A DNA stretch of 64,000 nucleotides. Source: Ianthella basta (taxonomy: Eukaryota > Porifera > Demospongiae > Verongiida > Ianthellidae). The stretch spans positions 7,280,092 to 7,344,091 of the forward strand of contig OZ025874.1 of the NCBI GenBank assembly GCA_964019415.1. Reading direction: 5' to 3'. The notes under the pieces were generated by a model. The model was not told where the DNA came from, ran no database searches, and saw only the letters and a program-made list of their open reading frames with translations. Each line of letters starts with the position of its first letter. The first letter of the stretch is position 1. The position numbers were made by a program, and so were the translations under genes. Of the stretch, positions 908 through 48,584 are shown in pieces.

Positions 908-2301
908 TCAACTGCCGCCTGACTTGGGCAGTTTGAGTCCAACCAAATGTGCTGCTTCCTCAAGTGGTCTTTCCCCTTTTCCCCTGAACTGCATGACCAA
1001 ATCCTGTAAACAGCCGGAGGACATGCAATAATAAAGTACGCATGTCCTGCAAGATCGTGATACATTGTGACAGACAAGTCACTCAACACAAACTCCTACG
1101 TAACTTAATCAATGATTATCAGTTACTCCATGTTTCAGCTAGCACACTGCATGATTGATTACTGTGTACTGTACACATACTCAGTTACCATTATAGTTCT
1201 ATTACTTTCACACGCCCGGCGGAACAGCCCACGCTGCAGCTGCCCAGGCCATGGCCTGACCAGATTTTTAGGCCTGGCCATTCTTTTGTATAGCAAAGAT
1301 ACTTGCTGGCCTGTGCAAGTGGCCATCTAGGTAAGATTGTCTTGATGTGGCCTGATCATCTTTAAAGTGCTTCCTCCAAGCCTGTTTCAAATCATGCACC
1401 ATCCAATCCAGATACTGCCAATACTGTGCATGCTACAATCTGCACAAATTAACATTTCACAAAATGGCCACTTGGAGGGCATTTTCTGCTTAAGTAAATT
1501 AGTATTTGTGAGACTTTAGACTGATATTCAAAATTTCAGAAAATAAACCCCTGCACAATTGGCAAAAACTGCCGTGGAAGTTAAAGTGAGGACAGAAGAT
1601 ATTGTGCGTACTTTGTGTTTTGCTGAGCTCTGCAGGTAGGCCAAATAGCTGTGGAGAGTTGCTAGTTCCCTGTCAGTTCGTGCTGAGGTGCCTTCAGCCT
1701 TCACCTCTCTGGCCCTACGTGTGATATACTGCCATGCAGGACTCTGAAACTACCAACACAACAATACAAAACAATATTATCATATCTGTGCCACTGCAGC
1801 CATTTTACACCTGCTAGCAATACTTGTAGTAACTCCCAATCCACAAGGAGTGGGTCACACATATACACATTGATTAAAGGGTATTGTACCTATTGGGGCA
1901 TACGGTTACTGAAAACAAAATTTTAATGTAATCGAGAGTGTGACCCGTTAGTGCAGCTACTCCCCTATATAGCTACAGTATTTGCTGAAACTCAGTTGAA
2001 TTGACACTACACATAAATGAACCACAAAAGAGTAATTTTCACTTTACAAGGATATAGAAAAAAGTCAGGATTGGCATGATCCTATTTGCATCGCAGTACA
2101 CAGCATGGTAGCTAGCTACTCTATTAATATAGCAGGCGTGCACGAGTAAGACAGTAATTAGCAGAGCAGGTCATTAACGATACATGCAGGATTGGAATCA
2201 TATAAGGGACTGGATCCCTTCCAACGCACGGGATGCTTTTGGCGGTTCAACAGCCGACACAGCCGTCGCATCAGTGCGAATGTCGTCGTGGTAGTAGCCA
2301 T
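908..2301 (-). CDS. FMC1: FMC1 homolog, mitochondrial ATP synthase (complex V) assembly factor
   Basis: Three exons on the minus strand, 2301-2230, 1743-1612 and 1003-908, all in phase 0, give 99 aa (human FMC1 has 113). The start is the ATG at 2301-2299 with a Thr/Arg-rich N-terminus (ALMRRLCRLLNRQ) that suits a mitochondrial LYR-type protein. Exon 2 gives SPAWQYITRRAREV...ELATLHSYLAYLQ. Exon 3 gives FRGKGERPLEEAAHLVGLK, closely resembling the FMC1 C-terminal signature HGKGERSVEESAGLVGLKLP. FMC1 is known to help assemble the F1 part of ATP synthase in the mitochondrial matrix. The donor of exon 1 (GTGCGT after CAT CCC) was chosen for phase and fit to the family; a donor GTATCG further downstream would be out of phase. 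The gene is divergent from PCBP with 181 bp between starts. Confidence 0.82.
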
Positions 2302-2482
2302 TTGTCATCAGCTGACTGTAGTGCGCACGTCACGTGATCACAGAGCATGCTTTTGTTCCTACACCCACGTGAGTGGATAGCCATCCAAGTCTCGTGAAAG
2401 AAGGTCTGGAAGATTCCACTTTGGAATTGGTCGCCTTCAGGTGAGGCAGCCGAGTGTTTCTGTGATGTAACGTTTTACTCAC
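2302..2482. promoter_or_regulatory. Bidirectional promoter FMC1 / PCBP with two E-boxes
   Basis: The 181 bp between the two divergent start codons must hold both core promoters and 5' UTRs. It carries two CACGTG E-boxes, at 2331-2336 (inside the palindrome TCACGTGA) and 2366-2371. No TATA box is evident. The E-box is the known site for bHLH-zip factors (USF, MITF/TFE, MYC type); which factor acts here is unknown. Confidence 0.6.
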
Positions 2483-8671
<6,189 letters not shown>

Positions 8672-9816
8672 TAGCTGTCCTTGGAAGGGGTGTTCGCAAC
8701 GTTTTTACACTTCTTTTGTTTTCCTTTGCTTCCCTACCCTTTACGGACCACCGACTATGGATCCCATCTTTGATTGTTTGTTTGTCACATCTGGCCACTA
8801 TCATCTCCACTTCCCTCTCATATTACTCTCCATCACTCTTCAAATCCTTGTATTGTTGTTCAACTCCGAGCCCATACTTGCAAAATACCCACCTGCCTAC
8901 GTCAGAGGATGAGAACCATGTCTCAGCCCTTTTGTTCATCAACAGTCTACTCCCTATTCTTTAATACATAGTGCAACGTATTCTCATTTCTGGTCCTAAG
9001 ACATGCTGTACTGTAGTAACGTACCACTCTTTGATTACATGCCCCTGTGATTGCAATGACTCTGTGCGTTTTATGTACTCCATCCTTATATACATTCTGA
9101 CACGTATACTTATCCATGTACGTACTTGCTTACCACAACTGTTTTCTTCTTCCACTTCACATTTTGTTAAATTTCCAACTTTTTCTCCTTGCTGTATACA
9201 TTTCTAAGCATCCATTTTGAGGCAATGTCAGAGATTAATTTGAATGGTTCTGGAGTCGCTATGGTGATGTCCTTCAAGCATGCTTCCAATGTATTGTAGT
9301 GAACCGAGACAGCCACCCATGAGCCAGTTCTAACCAACAGAGACCTTTATAGAGAGGTGGCTGCATTACAGAGGCAGACTGCAATATAATGTTGTAGTGC
9401 TGTAACTGTATTAAGTGGCATATTAATGGGGCCAGGGAAGGTGGCTGCTCAATACAGTGACCATCTCCAACAGGTTCCACTGTATGTTATACATGTTAGA
9501 TATGCATGCAGCTACATGTGAACATGGTTAGGTGCAAATCTGTTCACTGGCCAAGACCAAATGAGTCATCCATGCACAGGTAGCATTTCATCGATCTGCT
9601 ACACACACAACTGCCATTAATGGCACATGCAAAAGCGATGTATTATAATACTGCACTAGCTCTAGCTCATTGTACGAGCCATGCAGTTGTTGAATACTGC
9701 TACTGATCATGCCTGCAACGTGCACACAGCACAGGACAGTTATTCACTTGTTGAAGTGTTACAGATGTATAAAAACAGTTTTAGAAGATGCTGAACATAA
9801 AACAAAACTGTACACA
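8672..9816. other. Convergent intergenic region, PCBP 3' to LOTUS-RRM-Tudor 3'
   Basis: No gene was found between the two convergent stop codons. It contains one copy of dispersed repeat A (9345-9490), with the shared blocks GGGGCCAGGGA and CAGTGACCATCT; the rest is unique-looking AT-rich sequence. Confidence 0.7.
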
Positions 9817-14521: not shown

Positions 14522-15025
14522 TCTCTTGTTGCATGTGCAGTTTACCCCCGGTGGAAGAAGTCAGTCATTCTGCTGAACTATCTTGGTGCTTTGTGGTGTG
14601 CCAGATTTGGTGTGTGATTCATATACTGCTGCTTGAGAGAACAAAAAGAAACTCAGTGTTTCTTTTTCTCTGTCCTTGACATAATATATTGGACTATGTG
14701 TTAGCGCTACATTGGACCTTTATGTGTGTCCTAACACCTCATGGTGTGGTGCACTTCAATAATGATGATTGGTTGATATAATGTAGTGAGAAGACCTAAC
14801 TACGCTGACGTCTTATCACTTCTAATGCATGGATTTCTACAGCAAAATGTCAACAGAGTACTCTGGATACATACAGTCATGGAAGAGCTATGATTCAACT
14901 CCCAAATTTTGGGTTTGGATTTGAAAGGAGACTCGCGCGTCTCCCTAGTTTAAATGGCGCTTGCCTATACGGGCTACCCGGCGATTCTGAGACCACGTAG
15001 CGTTTGAAGGTCCACTTGTAGCGTG
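14522..15025. other. Intergenic region and TMUB 5' region
   Basis: No gene or repeat recognised. The last 100 bases are GC-richer and probably hold the TMUB promoter. Confidence 0.5.
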
Positions 15026-16096
15026 ATGTCGTTAGTTCAGGGAGTTGGAGACGAAGTCCTCGTATTCTTTGTGTTTATGTTCCTTTTGATAGCCGTACTG
15101 GTTGTCATCTTGCTGAGAGCATCACCATCTGGTGGGCCGAGACTCGCAGGCAGCAATGAGAGACGCGATGATGCGACGGAGAGCTCCAGTCTAGATTACA
15201 ATGGAGCAGGGCAGGCGTCTGACGACTCCGTTGGAACTACTGGGCGGGCGTTTGAAGACACAATGAGAACATCTGGTGAAGCAGAGAGGATGTCTGACGG
15301 GTCCAGGACAGGAAGAATGGATATGGGCGAGGACTATGAGCGTCTTCATGACACAGCAAGGACCCACACCGACCGTAATGCTGTGACATGTGCAAGCAGT
15401 GGTGACAGAGGGGAGCTGAGACGAAGGGTCCCCAGAGGTAAAGTTGCCTCTGCTCACACAGAGCCATCAAGACGTGAGGAAGAGGAGGCTAGTCTTGGTA
15501 ACATTTGGGAAGCTGCTGAAAGAGCGGACGGTGGACAAGAGCAGCAGTTGGCTTCCTCTGCCAATGGTGCCATCAGTCCACCCGAGGAGATGGAGGCACA
15601 TGAGACTGTTCCTGCTCCAGAACCACCAGAGGGGGAGACTTCTGATGTGTTGAGCATAATCTTAGTCCACTTCCAGCAAAGAAATCGGATCAACTGCAGT
15701 CCAGATGACACACTGGCACACCTTGCTGAGGTGCATTTTGCACATGAGCTGGGAGACAATGTTCGTGCCCGGTTTATATACTGTGGGCGCTTGCTTGAAG
15801 CCGAAGCTCCCATGAGGGAACACCACCTTCCACCTGAAGCTGGCATTCACATACACTTCAGTAGAGGTGGGGGCACACACCCAATGCAGGCCACAGGAGG
15901 GCCAGCTGAGCTTGATATCACCTTCCTTTTTCTGCCCCTGTTGGGTGTAGTTCTGTGTGCTGTTTGGGCTGTCCTGTTGTGGAAGCCAGTGTTGTTTACG
16001 CTTTTGACAAAGCTAATGCTTTACTTTCTCTCTTTTGGTTTCGTTTTAATGCTGTATGCACGATTTGGTCAACGAGCCACCGCTGCTCACCAGTAA
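15026..16096 (+). CDS. TMUB: Transmembrane and ubiquitin-like domain protein (TMUB1/TMUB2 type)
   Basis: A single exon of 356 aa with ATG at 15026. The order of parts is the TMUB architecture: an N-terminal membrane helix (about 11-31, VLVFFVFMFLLIAVLVVILL), a long polar acidic/Ser-rich linker (35-205), a ubiquitin-like domain (about 207-282; ARFIYCGRLLEAEAPM, LPPEAGIHIHFS) and two C-terminal membrane helices (about 299-320 and 322-347). TMUB1 (HOPS) is known at the ER membrane, where it takes part in ERAD and receptor recycling; TMUB2 is its paralog. The linker is longer than in vertebrate TMUB1 (246 aa) and closer to TMUB2 (321 aa). No intron interrupts the gene, unlike its neighbours. Confidence 0.88.
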   Translation: MSLVQGVGDEVLVFFVFMFLLIAVLVVILLRASPSGGPRLAGSNERRDDATESSSLDYNGAGQASDDSVGTTGRAFEDTMRTSGEAERMSDGSRTGRMDMGEDYERLHDTARTHTDRNAVTCASSGDRGELRRRVPRGKVASAHTEPSRREEEEASLGNIWEAAERADGGQEQQLASSANGAISPPEEMEAHETVPAPEPPEGETSDVLSIILVHFQQRNRINCSPDDTLAHLAEVHFAHELGDNVRARFIYCGRLLEAEAPMREHHLPPEAGIHIHFSRGGGTHPMQATGGPAELDITFLFLPLLGVVLCAVWAVLLWKPVLFTLLTKLMLYFLSFGFVLMLYARFGQRATAAHQ

Positions 16097-27724: not shown

Positions 27725-28426
27725 GTGTGTGTGCAGGTGTGTGTAAGTCCATGTACATGTGTGGGAGCATTCATTCGTGTGTGGGCTACACAAGGCATCA
27801 CAGCCATGCTCTTCCTTCTGCTTCTTTAGGAAATAAAGTACCAAGTTCCCCACGAGTCTCAACTGTGGACCCTAGGCTTTACCAGTGAGCAGGCAACACA
27901 GAAAATCATTGCTTCTCGGACCCTCCTCTTGTCATTTGTAGACAATGAGCGAAACGATGTCAATTCTACAACTGTCGACAATTGCAAGGAGGTTTGTTTA
28001 CATCATGATGTGATCAGGAGGGGGGGGGTGGGATTAAGGTCATTTGTGGTTCGTCTCTGACAATTTGCTAGAATCTGCTTCACTTAGTATCATGTCATAT
28101 GACAGTAACACACTAGCCTCATGTCATGTGACAGTGACACACTAGCCTCATGTCATGTGACAGTGACACACTAGCCTCATGTCATGTGACAGTGACACAT
28201 AACTCTGGTGTCACATGACATTGACACGCTAGTACAGTGACAGTGACTGACTGTAGACATCACTTCACAGTGACACACTTGAATACCACACTCTTCCCTT
28301 CCCGCTCTGTAGGAGAAGAATATCTACAAATTTGACACTCCTGTAGCACACACATTGCCCATCAGGGATGTCAAGGGCACAGTGCCACTGGGCGCAGTAC
28401 GTGTTGGAGAGGTCTGCTATTACTAG
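16684..28426 (+). CDS. Fibrillar collagen alpha chain, 34 coding exons
   Basis: Exons: 16684-16803, 16938-16961, 17044-17196, 17386-17493, 17599-17697, 18119-18191, 18339-18517, 18584-18628, 18835-18988, 19219-19325, 19466-19573, 20032-20175, 20465-20572, 20811-20864, 20936-20989, 21895-22092, 22316-22369, 22727-22996, 23479-23586, 24047-24100, 24513-24566, 24726-24941, 25088-25195, 25525-25578, 25687-25740, 25852-25905, 26172-26244, 26354-26434, 26574-26743, 26969-27248, 27360-27472, 27591-27662, 27830-27991, 28313-28426. They join to 1,272 aa. A signal peptide (1-18, [17 protein letters not shown]) is followed by a short Gly-X-Y stretch, a VCIGCPD interruption and a main helix (43-1062) of about 340 triplets with two imperfections (Ala at 100, Ser at 730). 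A COLFI-type C-propeptide closes the protein: it has [23 protein letters not shown] and terminal VGEVCYY, matching the known EYWIDPNQG and DIGPVCF signatures. No N-propeptide domain is present. Helix exons are multiples of 9 bp, many 54 or 108, as in fibrillar collagen genes. Such chains form trimeric extracellular fibrils. Confidence 0.95.
19055..19160 (+). repeat. Repeat family B fragment in collagen intron 9
   Basis: Shares CTTCAACCTCCCCATACTGC and TTTTACAAGACACCTGTTCC with the family B consensus. Confidence 0.5.
19666..19763. repeat. Fold-back (inverted) repeat in collagen intron 11
   Basis: The left arm (CTTTCAAGTGGGGTA...CAACTGGA, to about 19702) and right arm (TCCAGTTG...TACCCCACTTGAATG, from about 19720) are imperfect reverse complements around a loop of about 18 bp. 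This looks like a small fold-back or MITE-type insertion. Confidence 0.6.
21013..21135. repeat. 38-bp tandem repeat, about 3 copies, collagen intron 15
   Basis: The unit contains TGTGTCTGCATACACGTACG followed by CACATGCATGGTGCTGGA. Confidence 0.85.
21527..21559. repeat. (GT)n followed by a run of 19 G, collagen intron 15
   Basis: A short GT array runs straight into an uninterrupted G19 tract (21541-21559). The surrounding intron (20990-21894) holds the 38-bp repeat and nothing else I recognise. Confidence 0.9.
28085..28205. repeat. 29-bp tandem repeat, about 4 copies, collagen intron 33
   Basis: The unit contains GTGACAGTGACACACTAGCC and CTCATGTCAT. Confidence 0.85.
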
Positions 28427-28727: not shown

Positions 28728-28733
28728 CCCCTT
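28728..28733. repeat. Left 6-bp target-site duplication (CCCCTT)
   Basis: CCCCTT directly precedes the left end of the 7.7-kb transposon and recurs directly after its right end at 36469-36474. Confidence 0.85.
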
Positions 28734-28974
28734 TATGGGGTGCCGTTTGTGTCAAAACTCGAACTCGAGGAGACGATTTTATGACGTCACCGATTCCAAC
28801 AATGGCTACGATTCTGGATGCAGCCGCAAATATGCGGCGACGATTCCGCACAGCAACCTCCATTCCGTGGCGACGAATTTACCGAAGCGACGAATCTCTC
28901 TGTATGGCGTCGATTTTACCGAAGCGACGAATTTCTCTGTATGGCGACGATTTTACTGGAGCGACGAATTTCTC
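28734..28974 (+). repeat. Left terminal inverted repeat with 37-bp subrepeats
   Basis: Outer part unique (TATGGGGTGCCGTTTGTG...), inner part built of about two 37-bp units containing CGACGATTTTACCGAAGCGA followed by CGAATTTCTCTGTATGG. It pairs with 36228-36468. Confidence 0.9.
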
Positions 28975-29411
28975 TCTAGCAAGCCGACTATGCATAAGAT
29001 CGTATGATGTCCCAGAAAAAGATTCAATTGCAATTAAAACGACACGTGGGGGTTTCGTAAAACGGCCATTTCGCAGCCATTTTGTTTGCCCTCGCTAGCG
29101 CACGTATATACGAGCGCATTTTAATCACGTGATGATGCTATCTCGACCACGTGGTGTTTGCTGCGGCTTTGCCATTGTGTTTGCGCATCCTATGCCCTCT
29201 AATGGAATTTCCCACTGCAATAGTGAGTGACTGGGCACCCTCATTGCTAACCCAAATATCTTCTATATCGCATCACACATGGTAGTCACCCTGAAATTCT
29301 CAACCATAATTATACAGAACCATGGCAATAACAAGATGCAAAGTCAGCAGCGTATAGCTATAGCACTAACCAGCAGATACACACAGAGAGACAATGTTGC
29401 ATGCAGCTATC

Positions 29412-32400
29412 CTACACTACTCCAAACCCCCCATGTCCTTTCATGGCTGTAATCATAGCTGCCCTGAAGCTGCGGTATTCATCGTGCCTCGTTGGCAGCC
29501 GCAACTCCAGTGTGCAAGTGGAGGCAGTGGGGAAGATATCAGTTGGACTGTGGAGGAAAACCAGAGTTGGTTGCCTGATGAAGCCCAGTGGAGGTATCCT
29601 GTCTGCTCCTGTGAAGAAGATTAGCATGTCTGTAAGTGCTACAGGGCATTTGTCCTCAGTTTCCAGGGTGCCATCTGCATGTGAATGATCATTGAAGGCA
29701 ATAACTAGCTACATTACTACGGATTGCAATTCTACTGTAATCTATGGCAGATCATTCAGAGACTTATGATTGCACTGCACCAGTCTTGTGCAGAACGTAC
29801 CTTCACATTCATCTAGGAAATCTACAAAATGGATGAAACACGCTTCTTCTTTCTCTCTCTCCTGGGTACCACTGTTGCTGAACCCAGCCTTTAACATGGC
29901 TATGAAATATTCTGTATTATTATATAAGCACATTATGTGAAGATGAGAAAATGCTATATATTCAGCAGTTAGATAGAATTTATATACATACTGCACACAC
30001 TAGTTAATGATACACATGCAAATACCTTTGGTCAGTTGGATTTCCTGCTGTGACACAAGTAGTGGTTTCATCAATTCCGGTTGAGCACGCATCATGTCAA
30101 GTAGCTGATAAGCATTTAGCCCATCAATGAATTGGTCCATTTCCACTTGCCCCTTTATGATGGTATGATACTGACGAAGGGTCAGGATCAGCTCTACTCT
30201 GTCATCCAGGTTGATCATGGATAAGGGCTTACGGTAGCCAGTTTCGAAAACTAGACTGCTGAAGTCATCATCCATGAATACCTCCCTCAATGCCTGGTCA
30301 CTTTGAGCTCTATGTATCTATACATCAGATATATATATACAGTCATTATCGTATAATTGTAACCCTAAGTGCATGAGCACTATTATATATTATACTTCAT
30401 ATGGTCATGCATGATTTTCAGCATTTAACACACTGAAACAATTCAATCCTATCCATGAAGTTTTGTCATATGATTCATGAAAATGCCACCTTTTCAACAT
30501 TATATACCTATATAATTTTAATAGTTAATTTATGCCAACATACCTCTGCTAGGAGACTCCGTACTTGATGGTCAGGGACATCTGAATCTGTTAGGTCCAG
30601 GGTATGATATTGCCCCGTTGTAATGTAATCATAGGCCGCAGGTAGAAGCACAGGGAAGCCCGGTCCTCCCTGCATTGCGGACATTGAAACTAGATTGCCC
30701 AGCATCTTGAACTCTGAACCCTGTGGAATAGGCCATGAAAGTGCATGCATTTGTTGGTATACTCATCAATGCAACTAATGCTTTACCAGAACTGACTTTG
30801 CCAGGAAAACTGAATAATTTTACCTGTAGAGCAGGTGTATTTCTGTCAAACACCATCTTGCCTTCTTCCCCACGGCAATACTTTGCCATCATTGCATTCA
30901 TAGTGAGCCTCCAAAATTCTCGGCTCGGTCCACCGGTGTCTACTGCTTCTTCCCCAACAAAGGACACCTACAATTCAGAATAGTTCACACTAGATTCTCT
31001 GCACCAGCAAAATTGGCACAATTATCAACCTTGTACCTCTAGCAGTTTATTGTAGGTGAACCGGGGCTTCCGCATTTCGCGGAAGGTATCCGCAAGGACG
31101 AATGAACGGCGCACATCAATCCGGACTCGTGGTGCATCCAACCATTCCATTTCTGTTTTCGGTGCTGGTAAGCTTGCCTTTTGCTGCAGTGCCACAATGC
31201 AGCTGGCCAGGCTCGTGGGCTGGTTCACTCTACAACATGCAGGTGGTATATTATCATACCCCAGTGATCGAAGTGCAACAAGACAAAAGTTTAATGGATA
31301 CATAAATATTATAATAATAATATAATTAGGCAACAAGCCTGAAGTGTAGTGGATGACACAGAGGCAAAGTGCACTATAAAAATGGTGGACTGGTATAGTT
31401 TCAAATCACCACTTAGAGACAAATGGTGCATGCATGGTCTCAAACCACCATTCAATCACCATTTGTTCATGACAACCCACCATAGTTTTACAGTGTCAAC
31501 CAAGATATACCATACCTTAGGCAAAAGCCTTGCATTAATGCATTTTACAGTCATTCAAAGTATATGGCATAGCGTAAACCTTATTACTTGCTTTCTCTAA
31601 CCTTTCCCCTTCGGTCAAGCTCTCTTCAATGGCTCTAGCGAACAATTTCTCCTCCATATCAATCAAATCAACAATTTTAACCTCTTGTTCAACCTATATA
31701 TATAAGATCAGTATGAATTCATGTCATCAGCATATGTAGTTGCAAAGAAAGCACATTAACACTCACCTGTTGCACAGAGGACTCATCAGGTATTTGCACA
31801 TGAGGAGTAATTGGTGAGTAAGGAGGGCTGTGTAATGGTGATGCATTTAGAGACCCAACTGGTGAGAGCTCTTCTAATGACATACGAGCATCATTGCTGT
31901 TCGTAACCTGTATATATAGTGGACCAATGAATTGCTTATATAAATGAAGTTAAGTCAATAAATCAAAATCTTATATCATATCAGTAGCTTCCATTCTAAA
32001 CACCTGTGCATTAGTCAAGCTCCATTCGTCATCAGCATCATTTCTCTTCTCATCACCTTCACTTTGAAATGGCACAACGAGCTACAAAGTGAAATGTACA
32101 AAGTTCCACTAATCCTTCTGAGCATGCATAGCTATACACATGCATATGCATGTACTAGCTAATATCATTCTGCTATTTCTCAAACAATGCATACATGTAC
32201 ATTGTATATTTCTATAGCTAGCTCCATTCTAAACTGGTGGGCTGTTCAAAGTGTTAGGCAATGTATGATTCTCATACAGATGCAAGCCTCTCTATATCAT
32301 CCTTATCTTAACACATGCATGTATGGAGCATGGGAATACAATTATGGATCCCTGTGGCTTTGTGTAGCCAGGGTAACATAATTGATTCTCACATGCAGCA

Positions 32401-33351
32401 AAGGTCATGCAGCACAGGAAATGACTGACATCAAAGAAACAGTCAGAAGCAATTGAAATGAAAACAAGCAGCAGCACATGCGCAGTACTGAAATATATAT
32501 CTGAACACAACAAGACCATGCATTATGCACATATATAGCATACCTGCAGTTCATCCTCTGCGAGAATGTATATAGGAGTCTTGGCATTTCTGCCAGCTAA
32601 TGAGCTGGCAGTCCAGTGATATGAATGCAACAGTTCAGGCACCATGAGGGTCCTGCTGTCTCCTCCGGATGGCTGGAGTATAGAGAATTGAAATGATCTG
32701 TCTTCGTCCATTGGACCAAGAAACACCGAACGGATTTCTTGAAACATTTCCTGTTCATCCATGTTCGACTTCAGCTGTATTTTGCCCACAAGTTTGTTCA
32801 CTGCAAGGAACTGCCTAACTTCCCTCTTCCGAGGGATAGGGATGAGCTCACCTTCTTTTTTTGCAAACGACTTAGGTAGGCATACAATATCTCTCTCGTA
32901 CGTATACAGTCTGCCCTTCCCCTTGTTATGCTTTGGTGGACAGCTCAGTGCCTTGCTGGCATGACGTTGCAGGAAAGCTGAGGGAAATGTTGTTTTCCTC
33001 CTAAGGGAATATTTAATGGGACTGAAAACAATTTACTGGCACCTACTGCTGTGTCAGTCTGTATATACTTAGTGGACAACAATTATGTATGTAATTTTGT
33101 GAGTGTGTACTAAAGCAGATGTGGTAGCTTGCTTACTTGCTTATTTTCGGCTGTTTGGGGACGGATGCAGCATGCTGTACCCTGTCGTCATCGGAAGAAG
33201 CCTCTGACTGTGGTAGAGGCTGAACAGCATCTGAACGGCGCTTCCTTCCACTAGCTGAAGGCTTGTCTTTAAACTGCGATAGCACCTTCGAGACGGCACC
33301 TGTGAGAACGCGCTCAACTGCTCTGTACCTGCTCTCCTCAGCGTCCAACAT
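29412..33351 (-). CDS. HECT-domain E3 ubiquitin ligase carried by the transposon
   Basis: Eleven minus-strand exons: 33351-33137, 33000-32544, 32081-32004, 31907-31767, 31693-31602, 31229-31037, 30967-30824, 30720-30544, 30317-30026, 29899-29801, 29674-29412. They join in phase to 716 aa. The first in-frame ATG is at 33351; upstream in-frame sequence back to 33417 has no ATG. The N-terminal half (1-340) is charged, with a basic patch (GRKRRSD) and no domain I can name. Residues about 350-716 form a HECT domain: VGEEAVDTGGPSREFW, the C-lobe FFTGADRIPPLGF, and catalytic Cys683 in TASTCTLELRLP. HECT ligases take ubiquitin from an E2 onto this cysteine and pass it to substrates. It resembles the multicopy 'G2/M-phase E3 ligase-like' proteins annotated in fish and cnidarian genomes. 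Lying wholly inside the TIRs, it belongs to the element. Its substrate is unknown. Confidence 0.85.
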
Positions 33352-33474
33352 TCTACTGTCGTCGTCAGTAAAGTCGATATGATTCGCCGCTTTCTTGGTC
33401 ACATGACATGACGTCACGTTATGTCACCTCCTATGCGAGTCCATCGCACGATTTTTTAATCCTGACAGAAGGAC

Positions 33475-33793
33475 CAGTGGCAGATCTAGCCCAACCCTAG
33501 AGGGGGCCCAGCGCCTATATTAGTTATTGCGCAATCAAATTATGACCTAATAAAATGGCTGCCGGCGACCAGAAGTGAATAAGAGCTCATTTTAGATCCC
33601 CTATGCAGTCACACCAAGCTCTAGTAAGGTGATACTGGCTCCTCTAATGTTATTAACATGATTTTGGCCATTTAGTACTTTTGGATGTATACTTACAAGC
33701 AATTTGCTATTAAAACATATTCCAGGTCTGGCCCAAGAGGGGGGGGGGCAGGCCCCCAAGCCCCCCCCCCCCCCCCCCTGGATCTGCCCCTGC
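33475..33793. mobile_element. Nested short TIR element (MITE-like)
   Basis: The left end CAGTGGCAGATCTAG and the right end (read inward GCAGGGGCAGATCCAGG) are imperfect inverted repeats. Both flanks carry AGGAC (33470-33474, 33794-33798), a likely 5-bp target duplication. It contains an 18-C run and no coding frame. It is related at its ends to the element at 44495-45045. It lies between the two genes of the 7.7-kb transposon, so it inserted later. Confidence 0.65.
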
Positions 33794-34064
33794 AGGACTG
33801 TGAAAAGTGTCAGTATAAGTTGAATCAGAGTTTGACTAAATGATTCACCTACAACCGAACAATCAAAGTACAGCATCGGCTAGTAATATTATATGGAATT
33901 GCTACATTGAACCTTGTGCTATTAATTGCATGCTTAAGTAAATTATCCACAAATGCATGCAAAGATTCTACAGAATAGCACACAAAGTAAGTACAATGTC
34001 ACAAAACATGCAAATTAAAGGATATAAGGATATATAATGCATTGATCAAGTGAAAATCCTGTAA

Positions 34065-36133
34065 TTAACTGCAGTTATGGCACTGCTGAAGATGCCGTCC
34101 AACTGTGCGACACACTTTGCGATACACAGAATAACCAAAGTCATCTGTCACTCTAAGCATATCTAATTGTCTGAGTTCCTGCTGGAGGAGGTTGCAAGGA
34201 GTAAATGTGGACCTAGGAACAGCTACTGCCTCATGAGGGGATGGAGCCTGAATGCTACTTGGGGCATGAGTAGGAGTGTGCAGTGTTGGGGCCATATTTC
34301 GGCTGATTGCACCTTGGATGAACAACTGGTTTGGTGTTTGGTTGTGTGAAGTAGACAGTGGATGATTATTCCAAGACTCCACAAATGAATCCAGAGCACT
34401 GTTGATCCTTGGAAGGAATACTGCATGTAGACAGAACATGTCCACCTCATTCAAGCAGCTCAGTTTACCATCACTCTCCATTTCTCTGAAGAGGTCAGCA
34501 TACAATACAGCAACACATCTATGTACGTCTCTCCACAGCCGTTCAATCCTTTCATTATGGGTTGATGACCCAACCACAACAGCAGATTCTGACAGTTGCT
34601 GCTCAAACATGTACCTCCACACATCTACATTCTCTTCACCAAGATCTGACCTAACTTTGTCAGGCACACCAAACATGCTGACTGCATCAGAAAATGAAGC
34701 CATCACAGTGGAAGCCAGATTGTTAGTTGAACAACGGAGGTACACTATGGTTCTAGAATAGCCGTCAATCCCTCCATGTATTACAAATCGCCACTTAATC
34801 AGTTTATGATGGCCATCTATGTGCCAAACTGAATTAGGTCCATCCACACAGTATACACGTCTGCGAACAGCAGTACTCCTTCTAATGGCAGTGTTGATGG
34901 GATCTACACGATGAATAGATGCCCTCACTTTGGCTCGGGGAACAAGTATCCCACAACGATGAAGGTGACCAATTATCAATCTTTCACCATCATTTGGGTG
35001 CGTTTGTTTGATTGACTCCACCATTCTGTCAAGATCGTCTGTGGATATGTCTGAATATGTACTAGTGGTATCAATGCCTTCCTCTTCCAAGCGGCGATAT
35101 AAAGTAGATCTACTGATCCCCAGTAGTTCTGCTATTTTTGTCCATGTAAATCGCAACCCACGAAGGTATTCTATCTCCTCAATGGTAGCATGGAGCTTTG
35201 GACGCCCAGGTAACCTAGCAGCAAAAAAGTACAATACATGCAGGAAAGATGCCAGCATGCAGCATCTGAGGCACACATATAATTTATACTATTATATGCA
35301 TATAAACTTTAGCTTGCCCAATCTGGAAGGAGCAGCAGGCAAATATCATTATCTGCATATATACCACAATTGCACGAACTGTGAATTGTTAGCCATCATT
35401 ACATGTATGTGGCATGCAAGATTCGCTATCCCTATATATTCTATGTGTTTTAATTCTTCTTTTACTTAGATGTAAGTGCTACATGGGGCCAGTCTGTGCC
35501 CTAGTGCCATTGGGCACAGTGCACTCAATTATTGATTGATTGATTGCTATACCTTTTGCTTAACTTTAACTATTGTATAGTACTACCAACAGGCAAGTAG
35601 CTACAAAATTGAGGAGTCACATTTCTGATGCAGTGCCTGTTGTCTACACCTGCCTATAAAATATTAAGCTTAAGGCTTGCTTAATACACTGCTAGCACAG
35701 ATTATCTGTGATATACAGTCGTGGTAGTCAAAGGCAATAAGCTTTAAGCACTGAGGTGTCTGCTAAGATTTGCCACAGCCTCTCTTAAGACTTAGGACTA
35801 ATACATATATACATGTATTCATGCATTATGCACACACACACACGTGCATGCACTGGCATAGCAGGGGAATAGTAGCTACACTGCTGAGTCAGCAAAAACT
35901 GTCGCCATTGTTAACAAGACAATTATTATAGAGAACTTTTATTGTCTAGACACCCTCCCACAAAAGGCGAAAGCGAGGGGTGTACATCTTTAGTTAATGG
36001 TGTGCCCCCCATAGCAAGGTGTTGGCCAGATAACAGCTCACCTCTCTTCACCAGTACTCAGCCCACTTGAACTCAGTGCTCGTTGTAGGTCCGACGACAA
36101 CTGCCTCTCCAATTCATCAAGGCTGGTAGCCAT
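34065..36133 (-). CDS. rve-fold DDE transposase (IS3-like / IS3EU-type)
   Basis: Two exons, 36133-36042 and 35214-34065, join in phase to 413 aa. Exon 1 gives MATSLDELERQLSSDLQRAL. An N-terminal helix-turn-helix (about 42-75, FTWTKIAELLGISRSTLYRR) precedes an IS3-like second HTH (about 102-135, RLIIGHLHRCGILVPRAKV) and an rve integrase core. The catalytic triad is present: D164 (VWHIDGHH), D221 (VRSDLGEEN) and E255 (HNERIERLW). The core is followed by about 150 residues ending in a proline-rich stretch and a C-terminal tail with Cys and His. Such enzymes cut and join the transposon ends. Intact motifs and an open frame suggest it may still be functional. The intron (35215-36041) is unusually long for a transposase gene. 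Confidence 0.85.
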
Positions 36134-36227
36134 GCTCGACAATCACTATAAGGCAGATATCTAGGAACAGAGTGTATAGCACGTGCTCACCAACAGGTTC
36201 GTGGCTCCATTAAATCGTCGCCATACA

Positions 36228-36468
36228 GAGAGATTCGTCGCTTCGGTAAAATCGTCGCCATACAGAGAAATTCGTCGCTTCGGTAAAATCGTCGCCATAC
36301 AGAGAGATTCGTCGCTTCGGTAAATTCGTCGCTACGGAATGGAGGTTGCTGTGTGGAATCGTCGCCGCATATTTGCGGCTGCATCCAGAATCGTCGCCAT
36401 TGTTGGAATCGGTGACGTCATAAAATCGTCTCCTCGAGTTCGAGTTTTGACACAAACGGCACCCCATA
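36228..36468 (-). repeat. Right terminal inverted repeat with 37-bp subrepeats
   Basis: Reverse complement of the left repeat with few mismatches. It has one more 37-bp unit on its inner side (to about 36207). CCCCTT follows at 36469-36474. Confidence 0.9.
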
Positions 36469-36541
36469 CCCCTTATATATATATGCATGAGTACAGCTCG
36501 GCTTACATTTAGCACTTTTTTAGCATTTGGTTGACCGCGGC

Positions 36542-45916: not shown

Positions 45917-48584
45917 GTCAGAGTAGAGTAGAGTAGTCTACTCTGACCTTGACTGTGTGATGAACAATGGGAGTGGACTGGTAATGGTGATGGGAGACTT
46001 CAATGCATCGGTGAGTGAAGGGGTGAAGGGAGTGGTTGGACCCTACGGGTTGGGGAATCGTACCAGTGACAACGGTGAGAGGCTTGTGTCTTTTGCCAGT
46101 ACACATGGATTGTGCATTGCTAACACCCTTTTCCCACACAAGCACATCCACACAGCATCATGGTACCCCCCTGACCCAAGGTCCCGGCCAAGCCTTAAGG
46201 ACTATGTGCTTGTCAAGCATCGGATGAGGTCATCAATCCTGGACACAAGAGTTCACAGGGGAGCGGATATGGACAGTGACCACCGTCTGGTGATCACCTC
46301 CATACGGCTGAAGCTGCTGAAGAAGGCAAGGAACCAGAGAAGACGGCAGTGCTTCAATGTAGAACTTTTGCTACAGGATCAAAGGCGGAGTGATTTTATG
46401 AAAGCCATTGGAGAATGTTTTGGTGCTAGGAAAAGACAGGGAGATGTAGAGGAGCGATGGGATGAACTGAAGAAATCAATACTGGGATCGGCAGAAGAAC
46501 ACCTACGAGGCAAATGGAAGAGGCAAAGCAGATGGATGACACAAGACACGAGTGAAATCATAGAGGCGAAGCGAATGGCTTTTCTGAGATGGCAAGAACA
46601 ACGAGAAGATGCCAGGAGGCATAAGGAGTACAGAGACCTTTGTAAGAGAGTGAGGAGAGCAGTGAAGGAGGACAAAGAGAAATGGTTGGATGATGTAATG
46701 AAGGGACTAGAGGATGACATGAAACGCCATCGGCAGGGAAGCTTTTACAAAAGAATGAGACAACTAACTGCAACCAGAGCGATACCTATGAACACCATCA
46801 TGGATGAGAGTGGACAGCCTCTGCAGAAGAGTGAGGAGAAGTTGGCACGGTGGAAAAGACATTTTGAGAAAGTATTGAATGTACAGAGTGTGGTAGCAGG
46901 GAATGTGATTGAAGAGCTTGAGGACCGTTCCGAGGTAGAAACAACACAAGTGACCAGGGAAGAAGTTGAACAGGCAGTGAGGAAGCTCCAGAATTGCAAG
47001 GCAGCAGGAGAGGATGAAATTGTAGCAGAGTTATTGAAGAATGGAGGGAATGCAATGATTGACTGGTTGTTAGAGATATTGCAAGAAGTGTGGAAGACCA
47101 AGCATGTGCCAAGTGAATGGAAGAAGGCTGTTCTGGTGCCTCTGCACAAGAAGAAAGACCGAAAGATATGCGACAACTACCGCGGCATATCCCTGCTGAG
47201 TGTTCCAGGAAAGGTGCTCTCCCTTGTGCTGCTGGACAGACTGGAGACCATCATTGACCCCCAACTCATGGAGTCGCAGTGTGGCTTCAGGAAGGGACGG
47301 GGTACAGTTGATCAAATCTGGGTAGCACGTCAGATCATAGAGAGAGCAACTGAGTACCAGACCCCTGTACACCTTGGCTTTGTGGATCTCACTAAAGCCT
47401 ATGACTCGGTGGACCGCTCTGCCCTGTTTGCCATGCTGAGGCACTACAGGGTTCCCCAACAGCTGATTGACATCATTAAGGAGCTATACACCGGGACATG
47501 GTGCTGTGTGAGAACCACAGACGGGACATCAGAGGACTTTGAGGTGAAGACTGGAGTAAGACAAGGCTGTGTGCTGTCCCCTCTCCTGTTCAACTGCTTC
47601 ATGGACAGGATCTTGAGGGAAGCCATGGAGATGACTGGAGGAGGCCTGCAGATTGAATACACCACCAGTGGGGGGTTGTTCTTATCATACAGGGACAAAA
47701 CCCCACTTACCACCTGCATCCAGAACATCCAGTATGCAGATGATCTGACCCTCATTGCAGAGACCAGAGGGGAACTGCAGCGTATGGTAGATGTGTTGGA
47801 CAGAGCCTGCACTCGATGGGGGATGAAGATCAATGGAGACAAGACCAAGGTGCTCAACATCGGCGAACTGACAGGGGACCATCCGGCCATCACACTTAAT
47901 GGTCACACACTTGAGGAAGTCGACTCCTTCTCCTACCTTGGATGTGAGGTGGAACAGACTGCCAGGGTGGAGAGAGATGTTCGAATCAGACTGGAAAAGG
48001 CAGCAACTGTTTATCGAATGTGGAGATGGAAGGTGTTCAAGAGTCGAAACCTCAGCAAGACAACCAAAGTGCGTGTGTTTCGATCAATGGTCATGTCAGT
48101 CCTCCTCTACGGTGCAGAGACCTGGCCAGTAACCCAGCACGACATCAGAAGACTGAAGACATTCCAGATGAGATGCCTCCGGGACATTGTAGGAGTGACT
48201 CTGTGGGACAAACGACGCAATGACGACATATTGGAGGAGACTGGGGAACTACCAGTAGAAGAACAACTAAGGTTGAAGAGGCTCCAGTGGTTTGGACACC
48301 TACAGAGAATGCCAGACCATCGGCCACAGAAGCAGCTCCTGAGATGCAGACCAACAGGAAAGAAGAGGAGACCAGGAGGGACATCTCTGCGGTGGGTAGA
48401 TGTGATCAGCAGAGATCTAACCAGAATCGCTAACTGGCAAGAAGTGGTGATGGACAGAAGTGAATGGAGAGCTGCAATACACCAACCCAAGTCAGCCCTA
48501 TCCCAATCTGTGATGAGGTAGAGCAAATGGATTCTGCCCGACGTCCATGATGGACAAGGAGTAAAGAAGAAGAAGAAGAAGAAG

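Follow-up and report, generated by a model that had tools for sequence, protein, structure and literature searches.

IS3EU transposons (IS3EU/GingerRoot) are described as having TA..TA termini, 6-bp target-site duplications and an integrase-like DDE transposase (PMC10045372), and the form TAYGG..CCRTA is given for the termini in PMC12730594. A helix-turn-helix (HTH)-like N-terminal region has been proposed for IS481EU (PMC10045372). Fungal IS3EU carry alpha-kinase and TET/JBP genes, the TET/JBP genes moving between transposon families (PMC12730594), and Helitrons with VTD or OTU deubiquitinases have been proposed to act through these on proteins for transposition or its limitation (PMC9741609). 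True G2E3 combines PHD/RING with HECT (PMC11394658), and an unclassified copy-number-variable repeat with a G2E3 blastx match was reported from Cottus fish (PMC5638112). Here, a stretch of 64,000 nt from Ianthella basta (GCA_964019415.1, OZ025874.1, positions 7,280,092 to 7,344,091, forward strand), referred to as the window, was analysed. It contains a complete DNA transposon of 7735 bp (28734-36468) with two minus-strand genes inside inverted ends, one for a transposase and one for a HECT ubiquitin ligase (E3). With good confidence, the element is a cut-and-paste transposon of the IS3EU type that has been mobile recently, and it belongs to a lineage with a long-standing second gene, the HECT E3 with its own N-terminal domain. 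Coordinates are window positions unless prefixed by a locus (L0xx), and the assembly searched was 209 Mb of one genome.

The termini, the 6-bp duplication and the DDE core of the window element are like those of IS3EU, and its HTH matches fit the proposal made for IS481EU (PMC10045372). In contrast to the described IS3EU, it carries a HECT E3 gene. The fungal IS3EU are similar in having accessory enzymes, a partly conserved gene order and exchange between transposon lineages (PMC12730594), but the element described here is from an animal host and encodes a ubiquitin ligase as its accessory enzyme, and the exchange seemingly involved one domain. An enzyme of the ubiquitin system is also encoded by the Helitrons with deubiquitinases; however, these are rolling-circle elements in which ubiquitin is removed, not attached, and the domain is inside the Helitron frame (PMC9741609). 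The RAG1-RAG2 Transib resembles the window element in having a second protein inside the ends together with the transposase (PMC4411706). It differs in its transposase superfamily, and RAG2 is no ligase. A RING E3 domain is found in RAG1 itself. The window protein has a HECT catalytic domain as G2E3 does, but it had no PHD/RING match in the Pfam scans and its N-terminal domain is different. The Cottus repeat resembles a HECT ligase and is possibly the same kind of element, known from a brief description without structure (PMC5638112).

The inverted arms of the element (28734-28978 and 36224-36468) are 245 nt each, with 97% complementarity. The ends and the transposase gene consist of the following features, where the duplications were taken from the sequence, the exons from the gene model and the catalytic codons were derived from it by hand:

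28728-28733: left target-site duplication CCCCTT, 6 bp
28734-28978, plus strand: left terminal inverted repeat, beginning with TATGGGGTGCCGTTTGTGTC, 97% complementary to the right arm
28868-28978: three 37-bp tandem units in the left arm (repeat family D3)
34065-35214, minus strand: transposase exon 2, HTH and rva_4 integrase core (also from Pfam and alignment)
34542-34544, minus strand: E255 codon
34644-34646, minus strand: D221 codon
34815-34817, minus strand: D164 codon
36042-36133, minus strand: transposase exon 1
36023-36134: window counterpart of the stretch retained in L016, L017, L018, L025 and L026, spanning transposase exon 1
36212-36332: three units at 37-bp spacing in the right arm (repeat family D2)
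36224-36468, minus strand: right terminal inverted repeat, terminating in ..CCCCATA (arm comparison)
36469-36474: right target-site duplication CCCCTT, 6 bp

The 37-bp units of both arms are predicted as possible transposase binding sites. Loci L016, L017, L018, L025 and L026 retain parts of the ends and, in the region of transposase exon 1, a stretch of about 110-170 bp with 75-85% identity; the retention of this stretch in several related loci suggests a conserved promoter or signal.

The two transposase exons encode 413 aa in an open frame with the DDE triad D164/D221/E255. The rva_4 integrase core (PF24764) was matched in Pfam with 247 bits (cut-off 26) together with HTH matches, and no zinc-binding (HHCC) integrase domain was found in the Pfam scan at E up to 1. 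In an alignment of nine transposases (A3), two of the triad residues, the first Asp and the Glu, were invariant and the second Asp was present in 8 of 9 rows, being replaced by Glu in L037. Three residues after the second Asp, the window copy has Glu and the other 8 rows have Gly, and the transposase of the window copy may therefore be impaired.

Related elements of the same genome were sorted by transposase and HECT sequence into the lineages A (window), A2 (L029/L038), B (L027/L045), C (L028/L033), D (L031/L046/L047), D2 (L032), E (L030) and F (L037). The window termini, TATGG..CCATA, correspond to the TA..TA and TAYGG..CCRTA of IS3EU, and TAYGG..CCRTA termini were also determined at L009, L010, L011, L012, L028, L033, L046 and L047. 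Exact 6-bp duplications, as published for IS3EU, flank the window element, L009, L010, L028, L033, L034, L035, L036, L046 and L047. The window transposase has the integrase-like DDE core without the HHCC domain, which is the third published IS3EU feature. The element thus fits the IS3EU superfamily by its termini, duplication and core, the placement being made by these three features. Ginger1 and Ginger2 were rejected since they require 4 to 5-bp duplications. Polinton/Maverick elements are 15-20 kb long and have protein-primed DNA polymerase and capsid genes. This class was also rejected: the element is 7.7 kb and its extra frames of at least 120 aa, on which no polymerase search was made, either belong to the end repeats or run antisense to the transposase gene.

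The HECT gene (33351-29412, minus strand) follows the transposase gene in the same orientation and encodes 723 aa. It has 11 exons in a stop-free joined frame, and all 10 introns are GT-AG. The exons of the gene model are:

33137-33351, minus strand: exon 1, basic stretch GRKRR resembling a nuclear localization signal (NLS; by eye)
32544-33021, minus strand: exon 2, conserved N-terminal domain (..IVCLP..; gene model and comparisons), no Pfam match
32004-32081, minus strand: exon 3
31767-31907, minus strand: exon 4
31602-31693, minus strand: exon 5, stretch resembling a ubiquitin-interacting motif (UIM)
31037-31229, minus strand: exon 6
30824-30967, minus strand: exon 7
30544-30720, minus strand: exon 8
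30026-30317, minus strand: exon 9
29801-29899, minus strand: exon 10
29412-29674, minus strand: exon 11, with the Cys690 codon at 29514-29516 (hand-derived)

Pfam HECT (PF00632) was matched at residues 431-722, C-lobe included, with 46.6 bits (cut-off 23.9). The HECT profile matched the solved chains of AREL1, Rsp5 and E6AP, the best being AREL1 6jx5 (E 9e-18). The C-terminal catalytic-Cys motif L..A.TC is present in the window protein, and Cys690, within PTASTC, is aligned to the PTAHTC Cys of 6jx5 and is invariant in lineages A, B and C. By this alignment Cys690 sits at the known HECT catalytic position, and ligase activity is predicted. A basic stretch ahead of the N-terminal domain (N-domain) was seen by eye in lineages A, B, C and E. 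Two N-domains scanned alone gave no Pfam match, and a structure model from four N-domain sequences reached a moderate predicted template-modelling (TM) score of 0.63. The model weakly resembles ubiquitin-like modules, but its best Foldseek match, the ubiquitin-like region of USP7 (E 0.018, TM 0.40), is too weak to assign such a fold. The exon 5 stretch, EEKLFARAIEESLTE, is similar to the UIM consensus and was absent from the Pfam output.

The first-pass annotation, made from the sequence alone, had described a whole-looking DNA transposon with 6-bp CCCCTT duplications, an intact DDE triad and an 11-exon HECT gene with a catalytic Cys, both genes on the same strand inside the ends. All of these were located, with the Gly to Glu change near the triad in the window copy. 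The inverted ends proved to be matched as described but 5 bp longer than the 240 bp given, and the label 'G2/M-phase E3-like' was not retained since the Pfam scans showed the HECT domain alone.

The search of the genome with the left end gave 35 matches among the scored candidates. Five further full-length copies were identified (L009, L010, L011, L012 and L013/L014), and all six copies, the window included, carry both genes. The identity to the window was 99.9% over 7737 aligned bp for L009, 99.1% for L010 and 98.8% for L012, all three being uninterrupted. L011 and L013/L014 were 98-99% identical in most pieces and interrupted by insertions; in L011, a 762-bp piece was 95% identical. The five further copies contain all 11 HECT exons and the two transposase exons, with every splice site intact. 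The transposase frame is open in six of six copies and the HECT frame in five, the HECT of L011 having two stops. Exact 6-bp duplications were found in three of the six: CCCCTT for the window, TGAGAT for L009 and TTTGTA for L010. The flanks of L012 match in 5 of 6 positions, those of L011 are ambiguous within a GTGCT repeat and those of the C3 copy are unmatched. Shorter loci with diverged ends, four of which had both ends located, 0.6 to 3.5 kb apart, showed no match to the transposase or HECT gene in the genome and local searches; one of the short loci, L015, has an exact duplication GTGAAC.

To quantify the linkage of the two genes, matches were clustered into 54 HECT loci (protein and Pfam searches) and 67 transposase loci (transposase-query search alone). 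The underlying matches numbered at least 102 for the transposase query, at least 91 at exon level for the HECT protein, at least 89 for Pfam HECT and at least 102 for Pfam rva_4; ten weak rva_4 rows (E 1e-4 to 9e-4), none near a HECT locus, stayed outside the count. Of 23 loci matched by the window HECT protein, 19 had a related transposase no further than 6.5 kb away, with a chance expectation of about 0.4% per locus. For HECT loci matched by Pfam only the count was 2 of 31; these two, C14:1833194 and C9:2477098, may be diverged transposon HECT genes. Outside the window family, 13 of the 17 HECT-protein-matched loci adjoin a related transposase. The genes are co-directed with HECT downstream in the six window-family copies and convergent in the other 13 linked loci. 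Chance is excluded as the cause of the pairing because of the five more full-length two-gene copies and the genome-wide linkage. The presence of HECT in related elements of the same genome also makes it look like a working part of the element rather than an accident.

Both genes occur together in at least five diverged lineages, with matching duplications on whole copies of C, D and A2. The whole elements of lineage C are L028 804-6648 with GTGCTG and L033 644-7459 with GTAAAC, and those of lineage D are L046 1530-7008 with ACAATG and L047 1406-6944 with TAATAT. A2 L038 has inverted ends around 1604-9157 and a common 7-bp flank CTTGTAT. In L030 (lineage E), the N-domain was found in a 235-aa open frame (2775-3479) beside an open transposase frame (3803-5023), with no match to a HECT domain and with unmatched flanks; this N-domain frame is a possible HECT-less regulator. 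Three further loci (L034, L035 and L036) have a B-type transposase 96-98% identical to B and the duplications GTACTC, TTTAAG and TAAAAG, respectively; the transposase of L036 is kept with its first part in another frame. The proposal of the first-pass annotation that the HECT gene is transposon cargo was thus strengthened by the full copies recovered through their ends, all carrying both genes and several with exact duplications, and by the linked loci outside the family. Copies of the inverted ends without HECT, which it had named as a sign of one-off capture, were encountered only in part: as the short copies, whose ends are diverged, and as L034, L035 and L036, which belong to a related lineage. 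The full-length copies all have the HECT gene.

The HECT domains of A, A2, B, C, D and D2 were 32-47% identical pairwise, with 62% between A and A2. Between lineages the proportion of synonymous differences was 0.71-0.81 and that of nonsynonymous differences 0.23-0.50; as synonymous sites are saturated, dN/dS ratios are to be taken as indicative. The five HECT-domain introns of the window (after residues 399, 447, 506, 603 and 636) are at the same alignment places in B. Lineage D keeps four of them cleanly, 603 fitting GT-AG only by a shifted acceptor; the four positions tested in D2 agree (603 was outside the test) and C keeps two of five. At several junctions, GT-AG can be chosen in alternative ways that differ by a few codons, and the joins were made by hand. 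The HECT domains with four to five intron positions in common are 35-47% identical. The common introns and the diverged yet constrained HECT domains point to one ancestral intron-bearing HECT gene kept under selection.

The trees of the two genes disagreed on the window element. In the HECT-domain tree the window groups with A2 (support 100/100), and in the transposase tree it groups with B, C and F (100/100) and A2 with D and D2 (100/100). In approximately unbiased (AU) tests, a forced grouping of the window and A2 transposases was rejected (p 1.7e-4), as was a HECT tree constrained to unite A2, D and D2 (p 1.4e-4). Clean congruence of the trees as a proof of co-inheritance was therefore rejected; when the window row was omitted, no strongly supported conflict was left, but the HECT tree was weakly resolved. 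Comparison of the window N-domain with its counterparts in B, C and E gave 40-43% identity, and BLAST showed no significant match between it and the D or A2 N-domain. The N-domain tree splits as the transposase tree does (99/98). On the simplest reading, the window element would be a mosaic, in which the catalytic domain came from an A2-like element and the transposase and N-domain stayed in their own clade; the same reading includes an inversion of the window-family HECT gene at some time. L030 was outside the HECT tree (no HECT domain) and the seven-row transposase tree, and L033, L034, L035, L036 and L045-L047 were not tree rows.

As a mechanism, the transposase, akin to retroviral integrases, would bind the ends, the 37-bp units being likely sites, and move the element by cut-and-paste with a 6-bp stagger. 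The HECT protein would be nuclear, as the basic NLS-like stretch suggests, and would raise the success of the element. The N-domain stayed with the transposase clade and survives without HECT in L030, and we infer from this an element-specific adaptor: a likely binder of a substrate or partner that fits the element's own transposase complex. By the same evidence, the most likely substrates of the E3 would be proteins bound to the transposase-DNA complex or situated near it. The target could be the transposase itself, or the turnover of the complex, and could equally be a host factor restraining transposition, both being serious candidates; an activity unrelated to transposition is rather unlikely. 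A wider proposal is tentative and falls slightly short of probable: that animal IS3EU ancestrally possessed HECT as a second gene under selection, with the N-adaptor tied to the transposase and a swappable catalytic module, that many of the multicopy HECT genes annotated as 'G2E3-like' in fish, cnidarians and sponges are transposon genes, and that the ligase tunes transposition or removes host restriction.

Several results weigh against a long-standing, selected HECT gene of this transposon lineage. Most of the 67 transposase loci, many of them fragments, had no HECT match in these searches. Four transposase loci of this HECT-less type were read: HECT is truncated in L034 and missing in L035 and L036 despite the transposase and the 6-bp duplications, and L037 has HECT remains, which came from the local search only and are not among the 23 loci. 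The transposase-only derivatives with duplications mean that HECT is not needed in cis; they were perhaps mobilised by proteins of other copies. Conversely, four matched HECT loci (C2:4411214, C2:6308939, C6:4108448 and C7:3559642) have no transposase within 6.5 kb, and none was seen in the three of them that were read over 5-6 kb. The full B copies L027 and L045 have matched ends and no matching 6-bp flanks. Damage is common outside the window family: of the two C copies read, L028 shows an apparent frameshift in its HECT gene and L033 an N-domain stop, so that in neither is the gene open throughout, and stops are also present in L029, L032 and L037. In the recent copies of the window family, 7 of 30 codon variants in HECT and 5 of 18 in the transposase were synonymous, where about 25% is expected without selection. 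These near-neutral values give no sign of selection after insertion; both genes drift, as is typical of transposons. The trees had only 6-8 rows with long branches, and the AU groups were picked after viewing them.

The neutral decay of recent copies and the existence of transposase-only relatives would also be expected if a host HECT gene had been trapped in one element, by one-off capture or nested insertion, and amplified without use to it; moreover, 29 of the 54 HECT loci, neither matched by the window HECT protein nor near a transposase, are ordinary host genes. This explanation is largely refuted, and we consider it very improbable, as the pair is found in at least five lineages with 32-47% HECT identity, common introns and saturated synonymous sites, and the 13 linked loci among the 17 further ones are all convergent. 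Repeated capture, in which IS3EU lineages independently took members of one expanded host HECT family, is somewhat less remote and still improbable. It could account for the window catalytic domain joining L029/L038 while the window transposase does not, and for the orientation, which is co-directed in the window family and convergent elsewhere. However, no expanded host family was seen, just 4 of the 23 matched loci lacking a nearby transposase; the intron positions are common, the N-domain follows the transposase clades and exchange between elements needs fewer events for the one tree conflict. The HECT genes could finally be functional host genes, a domesticated family, with the transposase a hitchhiker or decaying around them. 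L039, L040 and L041, matched HECT loci without a transposase in the stretch read, are in line with this, but in several families the two genes are enclosed by matched ends with duplications, and the window-family copies are near-identical and decay neutrally after insertion, which makes it scarcely credible. A recently mobile IS3EU-type element with a long-standing HECT gene thus remains preferred.

No HECT-bearing IS3EU element was found in the literature among the matches listed, and no paper combined 'IS3EU' and 'HECT' in a text search, Repbase reports and most subscription journals being outside the scope of both. The HECT E3 as an IS3EU accessory gene appears to be new, whereas accessory enzymes and ubiquitin-system enzymes on transposons were already known. 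If the reading is true, a ubiquitin-attaching enzyme kept over deep divergence would be the counterpart of the deubiquitinase transposons (PMC9741609), and ubiquitin control of transposition would become testable in a small two-gene system. What is counted as an expanded host family of HECT genes may then be mobile DNA, which would affect annotation and claims of 'gene family expansion' in animal genomes.

Viral contigs scanned with the N-domain, transposase and HECT alignments contained no relatives. The scan of prokaryote contigs with the transposase gave three contigs (L042, L043 and L044) of a Cycloclasticus sponge-symbiont metagenome-assembled genome (host Poecilosclerida sp. M), whose transposases are 42-47% identical in the best segment; none of the three, just 3.4-4.2 kb long, had a HECT match. 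As they carry IS3EU-type transposases, the contigs are probably contaminating DNA of the sponge host. L043 also carries a retrotransposon-like polyprotein (by eye).

Other insertions and neighbouring features were noted as well. At L037 3347-4774, a reverse-transcriptase-like sequence (by eye) is located between the F-lineage HECT pieces, as if inserted. To the left of the window transposon, a 29-bp tandem repeat of about 5 units is present at 28085-28229. An 864-aa open frame at 45927-48521 (plus strand), apparently intact, has the look of an endonuclease/reverse transcriptase of the long interspersed nuclear element type, and a 362-aa open frame at 15008-16096 (plus strand) resembles a TMUB-type membrane-bound ubiquitin-like protein, both judged by eye.

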